A stretch of DNA of 33,931 bases from Candidatus Aenigmatarchaeota archaeon (GTDB taxonomy: Archaea > Aenigmatarchaeota > Aenigmatarchaeia > JACPZZ01): NCBI GenBank assembly GCA_016202815.1, contig JACQNZ010000008.1, positions 1 to 33,931 of the forward strand. The letters are read 5' to 3'. The notes beneath the pieces are model-generated. The model made no database searches. It was given only the letters and a program-made list of their open reading frames with translations, and was not told the DNA's origin. Below are positions 4,790-31,879 of this stretch, piece by piece (the first letter of the stretch is position 1; every line of letters starts with the position of its first letter). Made by a program: the position numbers and the translations under genes.

Positions 4790-4820
4790 GAAGCATACGC
4801 ATACAAACGGCGTATGCTTC
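4790..4820 (+). repeat. 31-nt hairpin element, copy A (11-bp stem, 9-nt loop)
   Basis: The left arm GAAGCATACGC (4790-4800) and right arm GCGTATGCTTC (4810-4820) are perfect reverse complements around the loop ATACAAACG. It lies 8 nt beyond the 3' end of tRNA-Arg. The same architecture (11+9+11, loop starting ATAC, arms starting GAA and carrying CA) recurs at 21921-21951 and, inverted, at 17772-17802. No T-run follows, so it does not look like a simple terminator. Confidence 0.75.
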
Positions 4821-4828
4821 TAACTGAG

Positions 4829-5005
4829 CGGATCCGGCGGGATTTGAACCCGCGACCTTCAACTTTCCCCTTTTGACATCTCTTTCGACCAAATCAAACT
4901 TTTATGAAACAACGAAAATCAACAGATTTTCGTGCACAGGAAATCCTTGATTTCCTGCGAGTTTGTTAGGAGGCTGCCGCTCTGTCCAGGCTGAGCTACG
5001 GACCC
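4829..5005 (-). tRNA. tRNA-Arg(CCT) with a 102-nt intron after position 37
   Basis: The acceptor strands GGGTCCG and CGGATCC pair with one G-U. The D arm is GCTC...GAGC and the T arm GCGGG-TTCAAAT-CCCGC. The anticodon loop starts CTCCTA, giving anticodon CCT. Exons are 4967-5005 and 4829-4864; the intron is 4865-4966. The splice sites fit a BHB: loop CTCC pairs with intron GGGG, then a 3-nt bulge AA/A precedes the stem strand GTTG. Base pair 27-43 is a G-A mismatch. The discriminator is G and no CCA is encoded. The intron contains two perfect hairpins (4912-4957) that recur elsewhere in the window. Confidence 0.93.
4912..4957 (+). repeat. 46-nt double-hairpin repeat inside the tRNA-Arg intron
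   Basis: Two perfect 9-bp hairpins are joined by GCA: ACGAAAATC / loop AACA / GATTTTCGT, then CAGGAAATC / loop CTT / GATTTCCTG. A second copy of identical length lies at 22020-22065. Of 46 positions 39 are identical; five differences are in loops and the other two form a compensated base pair (C-G versus T-A) in the first stem. Confidence 0.85.
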
Positions 5006-5037
5006 TGTTGTAACTAGAAACCGGTGCGTAATAGTTA

Positions 5038-5118
5038 GAAGCATACCGATATTGAGAAAATCTGTCGATTTTCTCAAATAGTTTGCTTTAGCAAACTATT
5101 CAGTATACGGTATGCTTC
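5038..5118 (+). repeat. Composite three-hairpin element upstream of tRNA-Arg
   Basis: The outer 11-bp stem GAAGCATACCG (5038-5048) / CGGTATGCTTC (5108-5118) encloses two further perfect hairpins. One has 11-nt arms around TGTC (5052-5077; core GAGAAAATC / GATTTTCTC). The other has 10-nt arms around TTTA (5077-5100; AATAGTTTGC / GCAAACTATT). The outer arms belong to the same family as copy A at 4790; the first inner hairpin has the GAAAATC...GATTTTC core of the double-hairpin repeat. It sits 33 nt before the tRNA-Arg 5' end. The remainder of 5006-5180 shows no gene. Confidence 0.75.
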
Positions 5119-5180
5119 AGTTTACGAATCACCTGTTTCAAGCCATAACCAATACTAAAAAGAGCGCCACAGATTAAATA

Positions 5181-17534: not shown

Positions 17535-17758
17535 TGCGGGGGGTCGGAGACTCGACTGCCATACATCGGCTGACTGACTCATACATGGTATGAGTCTAAT
17601 TGCCGTGTGGCTAGTTTTCGAACCGACGAACTCGCTAGGAGATCAGATATCTCGTTTTGGTCAAGCTTTTCCTAAGCTTGTCTTGAGTCTGACGCCTTTA
17701 GTCATAGGCGATGCTTCGCCTCATCACTCAAGTGTTAACCGGGCTTGGCTACCCCCGC
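17535..17758 (-). tRNA. tRNA-Leu(CAA) interrupted in D loop, anticodon loop and T loop
   Basis: Four exons give an 86-nt class II tRNA: 17735-17758, 17682-17697, 17617-17648 and 17535-17548. Acceptor GCGGGGG/CCCCCGC is perfect; D arm GCC...GGC; anticodon arm TCAGA-CTCAAGA-TCTGA; variable arm CTC-CTAGC-GAG; T arm GTCGG-TTCGAAT-CCGAC. Insertions are 37 nt (17698-17734, D loop), 33 nt (17649-17681, after position 37) and 68 nt (17549-17616, after position 59). The T-loop intron has an exact BHB: TTCG pairs with CGAG, with bulges AA/A and TC/T, continued by an inner stem. The anticodon intron fits with CTC-GAG and bulge AT/A. The D-loop boundaries are the least certain (a weak GGTT/GACT central helix). 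Confidence 0.88.
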
Positions 17759-17771
17759 AGTTGCCTAATTA

Positions 17772-17802
17772 AAAACATATGCTTTTAGTATGCATATGTT
17801 TC
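17772..17802 (-). repeat. 31-nt hairpin element, copy C (inverted orientation)
   Basis: Read on the minus strand, arm GAAACATATGC, loop ATACTAAAA and arm GCATATGTTTT form an 11+9+11 hairpin with only the terminal pair imperfect (G-T). It lies 13 nt before the tRNA-Leu 5' end, where the promoter is expected. The 13 bases upstream (GCCGGTGC plus TAGAA context) resemble the flank of the composite element at 5014-5047. Confidence 0.72.
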
Positions 17803-21837: not shown

Positions 21838-21909
21838 AGCCCCCGGTGAGGATTGAACTCACGACCTACAGTTTACAAAACTGTCGCTCTACCACTGAGC
21901 TACGGAGGC
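21838..21909 (-). tRNA. tRNA-Thr(TGT), uninterrupted
   Basis: Acceptor GCCTCCG/CGGGGGC (one T-G), D arm GCTC...GAGC, anticodon arm ACAGT-TTTGTAA-ACTGT, T arm GTGAG-TTCAATC-CTCAC. Discriminator U, no encoded CCA. It is the only tRNA of the six here without an intron. Confidence 0.96.
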
Positions 21910-21920
21910 AGTTGCAGACT

Positions 21921-21951
21921 GAAACAGATCCATACCAACTGGATCTGTTTC
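21921..21951 (+). repeat. 31-nt hairpin element, copy B
   Basis: Arms GAAACAGATCC and GGATCTGTTTC are perfect complements around the loop ATACCAACT. The element has the same 11+9+11 geometry as copies A and C, with different arm bases that still pair. It lies 11 nt before the 5' end of tRNA-Thr, over the expected promoter region. Confidence 0.78.
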
Positions 21952-21984: not shown

Positions 21985-22020
21985 TTTGATCAAACCTTTG
22001 TCTTAAAGTTTGAAAGACAA
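21985..22020 (+). repeat. TTGATCAAAC-type palindrome, diverged copy
   Basis: TTTGATCAAAC is followed by CTTTGTCTT and AAAGTTTG, allowing a bulged hairpin (CAAAC-TTT / AAA-GTTTG) or the alternative TTGTCTT / AAGACAA with a 9-nt loop. It resembles the TTGATCAAACTTC...GAAGTTTG repeats at 25791 and 31751. It abuts the double hairpin at 22020. Confidence 0.45.
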
Positions 22021-22065
22021 TGAAAATCTGATGATTTTCATGCACAGGAAATCCATGATTTCCTG
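22020..22065 (+). repeat. 46-nt double-hairpin repeat, intergenic copy
   Basis: ATGAAAATC / loop TGAT / GATTTTCAT, then GCA, then CAGGAAATC / loop CAT / GATTTCCTG. It has the same length and layout as 4912-4957 in the tRNA-Arg intron. A TATA-like ATTAATAT follows at about 22075 and probably drives the gene at 22108. Confidence 0.85.
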
Positions 22066-22107
22066 TGAAGGCTTATTAATATCTCTCCGCAGGCCTATTT
22101 TATTGTT

Positions 22108-25790: not shown

Positions 25791-25821
25791 TTCTTGATCA
25801 AACTTCTTATAAAGAAGTTTG
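25791..25821 (+). repeat. 31-nt palindromic repeat upstream of tRNA-Met
   Basis: TTCTTGATCAAACTTCTTAT plus the following AAAGAAGTTTG matches 31751-31781 at 30 of 31 bases. CAAACTTCTT and AAGAAGTTTG form a perfect 10-bp hairpin around ATA. In this copy the centre reads TATAAA and lies 36-41 nt before tRNA-Met, so it may also serve as the TATA box. Confidence 0.8.
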
Positions 25822-31750: not shown

Positions 31751-31781
31751 TTCTTGATCAAACTTCTTAGAAAGAAGTTTG
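31751..31781 (+). repeat. 31-nt palindromic repeat at the 3' end of tRNA-Lys
   Basis: Second copy of the 25791-25821 repeat, 30 of 31 bases identical. The hairpin CAAACTTCTT / AGA / AAGAAGTTTG includes the last two bases of tRNA-Lys (31780-31781). The TATAAA centre of the other copy is TAGAAA here. Read in the tRNA direction it is not followed by a T-run. Confidence 0.8.
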
Positions 31782-31879
31782 GGCCCAGCGAGATTTGAAC
31801 TCGCGACCTGTCGATATCCCAATGAACTAAGAAAGCTCAAATAAGAGTCGAACGCTCTACCAGGCTGAGCTATGGGCCC
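31780..31879 (-). tRNA. tRNA-Lys(CTT) with a 26-nt intron after position 37
   Basis: Acceptor GGGCCCA/TGGGCCC, D arm GCTC...GAGC, anticodon loop CTCTTA giving CTT, T arm GCGAG-TTCAAAT-CTCGC. Exons 31842-31879 and 31780-31815; intron 31816-31841. BHB: CTC pairs with GGG (with G-U), then bulge AT/A before TCGAC. Pair 27-43 is a T-C mismatch, paralleling the G-A mismatch in tRNA-Arg. Discriminator A, no CCA. A 7-bp hairpin with a 9-nt loop (31876-31898) spans its 5' end. Confidence 0.92.

Follow-up and report, generated by a model that had tools for sequence, protein, structure and literature searches.

Nesting hairpin modules in tRNA leaders, RNA genes and intergenic DNA of one genus of Candidatus Aenigmatarchaeota

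The window, that is, the whole stretch of 33,931 nucleotides analysed here (bases 1-33931 of contig C7), comes from a Candidatus Aenigmatarchaeota genome of 946,720 bases in nine contigs, which is 91% complete. It carries three hairpins with an 11-bp stem and a 9-nt loop, which an earlier note had placed at three tRNA genes. Their geometry stands: Copy A (4790-4820, plus strand; GAAGCATACGC-ATACAAACG-GCGTATGCTTC; fold z -5.0) and Copy B (21921-21951, plus strand) are perfectly paired, and Copy C (17772-17802, minus strand; loop ATACTAAAA) has 10 Watson-Crick pairs and one terminal mismatch-type pair (G.T on one strand). All three do adjoin tRNA genes, each on the minus strand, but the side has to be corrected. 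Copy A lies 8 nt from the 3' end of tRNA-Arg(CCT) (4829-5005, with an intron of ~102 nt), while Copy B ends 11 nt upstream of tRNA-Thr(TGT) (21838-21909), with its loop antisense to the gene, and Copy C lies 13 nt upstream of a tRNA-Leu (about 17536-17758, ends set by eye), with its loop in the tRNA sense. In the congener with which most comparisons were made (G087), a hairpin different from Copy B occupies the tRNA-Thr site. The tRNA-Leu has insertions in its D-loop and T-loop, the latter holding a short-loop hairpin, GACTCATAC...GTATGAGTC (17576-17596), and being absent from G087. This gene, like several other tRNAs of the genus, escapes ARAGORN and Rfam because inserts interrupt it.

The tRNA-Arg leader of the window holds a nested structure. 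What had been described as a composite at 5014 is real, and proves to be a three-level nested hairpin (5017-5139, minus strand) whose last base lies 11 nt upstream of the tRNA, whose outer arms (5017-5027 and 5129-5139) form 9 of 11 pairs and whose predicted fold reaches -56.8 kcal/mol (z -10.7). Within it, an 81-nt composite (5038-5118) consists of a 10-nt-loop unit with its loop filled by a double hairpin (5052-5077 and 5077-5100). The window also contains hairpins of other families. A second family (CATAGGAAAC...GTTTCCTATG, together with double forms) is found in tRNA introns, promoters and a 23S rRNA expansion (C1:1152-1200); its double-hairpin repeat sits within the tRNA-Arg intron (4909-4960), is missing from the tRNA-Arg orthologue of G087 and has a second copy at 22017-22068 (85% identity), and the 23S gene of G087 has extra hairpins. 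A third family (CAAACTTCTT...AAGAAGTTTG) adjoins tRNA-Met and tRNA-Pro, as a 31-nt repeat at 25791-25821 and 31751-31781 (97% identity): the hairpin CAAACTTCTT-ATA-AAGAAGTTTG (25799-25821) is upstream of tRNA-Met and its relative (31758-31782) is at the 3' end of tRNA-Pro(GGG). Relatives of the third family with CAAACTTTTT arms occur across the genome.

Further copies of the 11-bp hairpin, on whose existence genome-wide the earlier note had let its case depend, are plentiful: 77 single units were counted in the window's own genome (surveyed in stretches, all but ~26 kb of contig C6) and 55 in G087, against 2 and 1, respectively, in reversed controls. The pattern GAARCA-N5-ATACNAA-N7-TGYTT, with at most two mismatches, occurs at 23 places genome-wide and at none in a backward control, and chance palindromes are ruled out by the reversed-sequence controls. 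At ~40 nt overall, the unit comprises an 11-bp stem, a loop of 9 or 10 nt and short flanking motifs, RRCTR on the 5' side and YAGYY on the 3' side. It has two main forms, one with a 9-nt loop of the ATACCAAAA type (stem end GC) and one with a 10-nt loop of the ATACAGTATA type (stem end CG). Since these 10-nt-loop forms and short-loop forms exist as well, the 9-nt-loop family first described is genuine but only part of the whole. The claim of a conserved loop with covarying arms was borne out by a test in which the outer arms and the loop were fixed and five inner stem positions were left free. The genus yielded 18 distinct 9-nt-loop and 28 distinct 10-nt-loop sequences (controls, 0), and 226 of the 230 inner stem pairs, although free in the search, are Watson-Crick or G.U. 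Among the 18 9-nt-loop copies, pair cells are formed in 99.0% of cases (89.4% in shuffles), cells changed on both sides number 20 (4.8 in shuffles) and the covariation score is 0.353 (0.151 in shuffles), a value reached by 0 of 500 shuffles; a plain count of pairs with two-sided change gives 5, which 36 of 500 shuffles attain. The pairing, the two-sided changes and the score make the integrity of the stems firm, the relatedness of the copies being a caveat.

Units also stack within one another. Cases in which a second arm pair encloses a unit in its loop number 10 in the window's own genome and 8 in G087, where reversed controls give 0 and 0 and random placement in ~250-270 kb of non-coding DNA would give ~0.2; at C7:143950-144100 the nesting is several levels deep. 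The loci C5:43723 and C7:143976 share an identical two-level unit of 73 nt but differ in the outer layers around it, which suggests that inner layers are younger than outer ones. Paired arms could in principle be a product of mutation, with template switching during replication perfecting or lengthening near-palindromes, in which case covariation would say nothing about function. Stems that are often perfect for no evident function are what such a process would leave, as are outer nested arms that are less perfectly paired than inner ones. It would nevertheless leave unexplained the dispersal of the units, their conserved loop and outer-arm sequence, their restriction to one genus and the identical composites found at unrelated loci, and as the whole account it is highly improbable.

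The placement of the units is far from even. None of 76 curated copies lies within a called protein gene, although called genes make up 72% of the bases (the calls were simple ones made for this analysis, and the genomes are metagenome-assembled genomes (MAGs), in which palindromes assemble poorly). Fully 25 of the 76 are in tRNA zones, which comprise 2.6% of non-coding positions; simulated placement gave a mean of 2.0 and a maximum of 8 in 1000 runs, so that copies are not equally frequent at random intergenic sites, an outcome that the earlier note had set against its own case. The tRNA association is thus a strong enrichment, with about two thirds of the copies lying away from tRNAs. It is also a matter of exact position, 16 of 35 tRNAs having a unit that ends 10-15 nt upstream of the mature 5' end (19 units lie within 40 nt, among them two nested forms farther from the gene and one, at tRNA-Ile, that actually belongs to the D-loop), joined to the tRNA by a linker YAGYYNNAAC. 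The loop is in the tRNA sense in 16 of 18 leader units, the window tRNA-Thr copy being an exception; the two orientations that had been noted at tRNAs therefore exist, but orientation in leaders is not free. A hairpin occupies the same position in ~14 of 21 tRNA leaders of G087 (by eye), and a leader unit lies at that distance from 6 of 8 tRNAs in three further congeners (loci L212-L251), whereas in other genera one of 32 tRNAs has a hairpin at that distance, of unrelated sequence (same loci). Several leaders bear one or two extra 5' arms with a ATCGTAAACT spacer and no 3' partner (upstream of the tRNAs at C7:151774, C9:6494, C2:94439 and, in G087, R5:15847), as if the tRNA had replaced the 3' half. 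A tRNA enclosed by outer arms was considered and rejected, these 5' arms having no convincing partner downstream of the tRNA.

Comparison between species reveals turnover. G087 and the window's own genome share 73% nucleotide identity in alignable DNA. Where a syntenic interval allows comparison, G087 has no unit for 29 of 49 own copies and the own genome none for 30 of 47 G087 copies, a presence turnover of ~60%. At the cleanest site (C7:54887; clean sites are few) a 40-nt insertion has no visible target duplication, and at C8:2401 an outer hairpin with compensated arms is common to both species while an inner one is in one only. The tRNA-Tyr leader has a nested hairpin in one species and a single hairpin in the other, and tRNA-Val(TAC), among others, has no leader unit in one of them. 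The 81-nt composite of the window recurs with 100% identity in G087 beside the 23S rRNA gene, a place where the own genome is without it, and in copies of 85-95% identity at four places in G089 loci; for a composite to be identical at unrelated loci, it must have moved or been transferred. On these sequence grounds mobility of the units is well supported, an empty site in either of two species meaning gain or loss alike. The note had proposed a mobile or invertible element, or a protein-binding hairpin: the mobile element gains from the empty sites and from the identical copies at unrelated loci, and nothing was found in support of an invertible switch or a specific binding protein. At tRNAs, the constancy of spacing and orientation suggests function rather than selfish spread, which counts against a mobile element, and the hairpins might instead be mainly a leader or spacer structure of tRNAs, vertically inherited and selected for pre-tRNA folding or processing, the dispersed copies being secondary. 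Such a role would fit a distance to the tRNA 5' end of 10-13 nt that is fixed in five species, the common sense of the leader loops, the persistence of the hairpin in orthologous leaders though its arms change on both sides, and the TATA-like boxes seen (by eye) upstream of the hairpin in several leaders. The copies away from tRNAs, the leaders without a hairpin in one species, the extent of turnover and the sister genera that do without it, while the RNase P RNA of the genus is as in the rest of the class, all argue against it, and we regard it as distinctly unlikely as the main account. A function in the leader of a subset of copies is plausible. That leader hairpins make up for a loss of RNase P is ruled out, because its RNA is present.

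Units are found inside RNA genes as well. The RNase P RNA match is 416 nt long, against a model of 288 positions, and has a unit inside it (C1:16985-17016). Other units occupy the D-loops of tRNA-Thr(CGT), tRNA-Ile (an insert of ~79 nt, where G087 has an empty site) and a tRNA-Leu, the anticodon intron of tRNA-Trp, a tRNA intron at C1:108063 (probably Gln), and both the intron (a 38-nt insert) and the T-loop of tRNA-Tyr. A check for the bulge-helix-bulge (BHB) motif scored helix pairs in the order central, intron and exon: the T-loop insert of tRNA-Tyr forms 3/4, 6/6 and 4/4 of them and the D-loop insert of tRNA-Ile, in a relaxed form, 3/4, 3.5/6 and 0.5/4, where canonical introns such as those of Gly, Lys and Asp reach 4/4 central and 4/4 exon pairs. 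Intron gain at an archaeal tRNA gene has been described, linked in Caldiarchaeum to a 1.8-kb recombinase element (PMC3293823). The inserts here resemble archaeal BHB introns in taking canonical and non-canonical tRNA positions and in varying between relatives; unlike them, they are or contain a repeat that occurs outside tRNA genes too, and BHB introns fail as a whole explanation, most units being intergenic rather than confined to genes for spliced RNAs. One could also imagine that the modules take a route through RNA, in which leaders cut off by RNase P or introns excised by the splicing endonuclease are reinserted and reverse-transcribed. The linker to the tRNA, which ends exactly at tRNA 5' ends, returns as the 3' flank of nested copies, the unit flank AACTAG opens the tRNA-Ile D-loop insert, the tRNA-Tyr T-loop insert forms a good BHB, and G000 and G089 each have a reverse transcriptase. 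On present sequences, such an enzyme appears in just two of the five genomes, and copies lie in both orientations relative to neighbouring genes, which leaves movement through RNA very unlikely.

Three further loci of the same genome deserve mention. A reverse transcriptase gene (C3:767-1997; L052, L175) is preceded by an RT-16 RNA match (74.8 bits), and an insert in the 23S rRNA gene (C1:130-870; L024), absent from G087, has a frame resembling a LAGLIDADG-type homing endonuclease (by eye). At C5:95270-95760 (L171) an IS200-type Y1 transposase gene is broken by a 48-nt double hairpin with an in-frame stop, of the same family as the double hairpin in the loop of the window composite; its homologue in G088 (L170) is intact.

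A single-strand HUH transposase of the IS200/IS605 type, with the modules as its REP- or MITE-like passengers, would account for hairpin recognition, insertion in exposed loops and absence of target duplication. G000 and G088 carry Y1 transposase genes, the cleanest insertion is indeed without duplication, and a related double hairpin has inserted in the Y1 gene itself (C5:95320-95368). Against this, none of the three other genomes has a Y1 match, the ends of the IS200 copy (C5:95150-95800) are unlike the units (by eye), and no transposase gene with flanking units was seen; we therefore find this origin unlikely. A MITE derived from IS200/IS605 was rejected on the same difference in ends. Bacterial REP/BIME sequences are short intergenic palindromes that go with RAYT (TnpA-REP) transposases. 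The units resemble them in being short intergenic palindromes, in some genomes alongside an HUH-type transposase, but differ in having no resident transposase flanked by units and in entering tRNA and RNase P RNA genes, and with Y1 in two of five genomes and no unit seen at the ends of a Y1 copy, REP/BIME with RAYT was set aside.

Other repeat systems fare variously. Rickettsia palindromic elements are repeats of a small genome located inside protein genes; the likeness of palindromic repeats invading a small genome ends there, since none of the 76 copies here lies inside a called protein gene. CRISPR repeats do not apply, the units having variable arms and being dispersed across at least eight contigs, rather than near-identical at regular spacing, and no cassette-like layout of the kind found with integron attC sites was noticed among them. 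Mitochondria offer closer parallels. Allomyces has mitochondrial double-hairpin elements. Repetitive hairpin-forming elements are known in sponge mitochondria (PMC2800124). Like the units, these mitochondrial elements are dispersed hairpins that enter intergenic and RNA-gene regions, but of mitochondrial lineages and unrelated sequence. In behaviour the family comes nearest to the GC clusters of yeast mitochondria (for example GC42), an analogy that claims no membership. These are palindromes of ~42 nt, polymorphic, merging and exchanged between species (PMC4478555); shared traits are the ~40-nt non-coding palindrome, polymorphic presence, structure-constrained stems, composites formed by merger (units here merge and nest) and exchange between species. 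GC clusters are, however, mitochondrial and of other sequence, whereas the units, in the collections searched, belong to a single archaeal genus; a target-site AG duplication is reported for GC clusters, where none was seen at C7:54887; and that source describes for them neither a constant distance to tRNA genes nor stacks in tRNA introns. The hairpin family is a member of no known family tested.

The taxonomic range is narrow. Units occur in 5 of 156 genomes of the class, all of one genus, and a pattern scan of GTDB species genomes recovered these hairpins from four groundwater MAGs of Candidatus Aenigmatarchaeota, which are the four congeners of the window genome (match coordinates agree). 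Even with the loop left free, the Aenigmatarchaeota matches still give the ATACAGTATA-type loop. Bacterial matches (13 stretches) have unrelated loops and were taken as chance, and a viral origin was rejected because three viral contigs match the arms only and have one unrelated loop in common. An Rfam 15 cmscan covering the window and the other surveyed parts of the genome gave no family for the units, its matches being to tRNA, rRNA, SRP RNA and RT-16 RNA only, and no published description of the elements was found in the open-access literature. The family of nesting, mobile hairpin modules is thus real, genus-specific and undescribed in the open-access literature searched.

We consider it probable that these are genus-specific, ~40-nt, non-coding, palindromic mobile modules that nest in one another and have in part become fixed as tRNA leader hairpins. 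They would insert into non-coding DNA without visible target duplication, preferably (i) in loops of earlier modules, which would build nested rods, (ii) at the site 10-13 nt upstream of tRNA genes and (iii) in loops and introns of tRNA and RNase P RNA. In RNA, a module would fold into a self-contained rod, and may be tolerated because this rod is lost together with the leader or intron of a tRNA, or lengthens a peripheral helix. The arms would be kept paired by selection or by palindrome-correcting replication, and leader copies would be retained as part of tRNA precursors. No enzyme could be tied to the family, which weighs against mobility (Y1 transposase and reverse transcriptase are each in two of five genomes). 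More tentatively, and with the odds somewhat against it, the modules might be archaeal mobile elements of a new class, ~40-nt hairpins whose ordinary way of spreading creates tRNA leaders and introns. Such an element would target RNA-gene loops and the site upstream of tRNAs and build nested rods, and its mover would act on folded single strands or RNA processing intermediates.

The surprising parts are the fixed spacing to tRNAs and the hairpins inside tRNA introns. How archaeal tRNA introns and the expansion helices of structural RNAs originated has mostly been inferred from old, unrelated inserts. Here, within one genus and between species that can be aligned, full and empty sites and single and nested states are seen at RNA genes – in tRNA D-loops, T-loops, anticodon introns and leaders, in RNase P RNA and in rRNA flanks – which makes insertion site, order of events and splicing directly testable. 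This groundwater genus is therefore a natural system for studying how tRNA introns and RNA extensions arise, and its hairpin family a prokaryotic counterpart of the palindromic elements of mitochondria.
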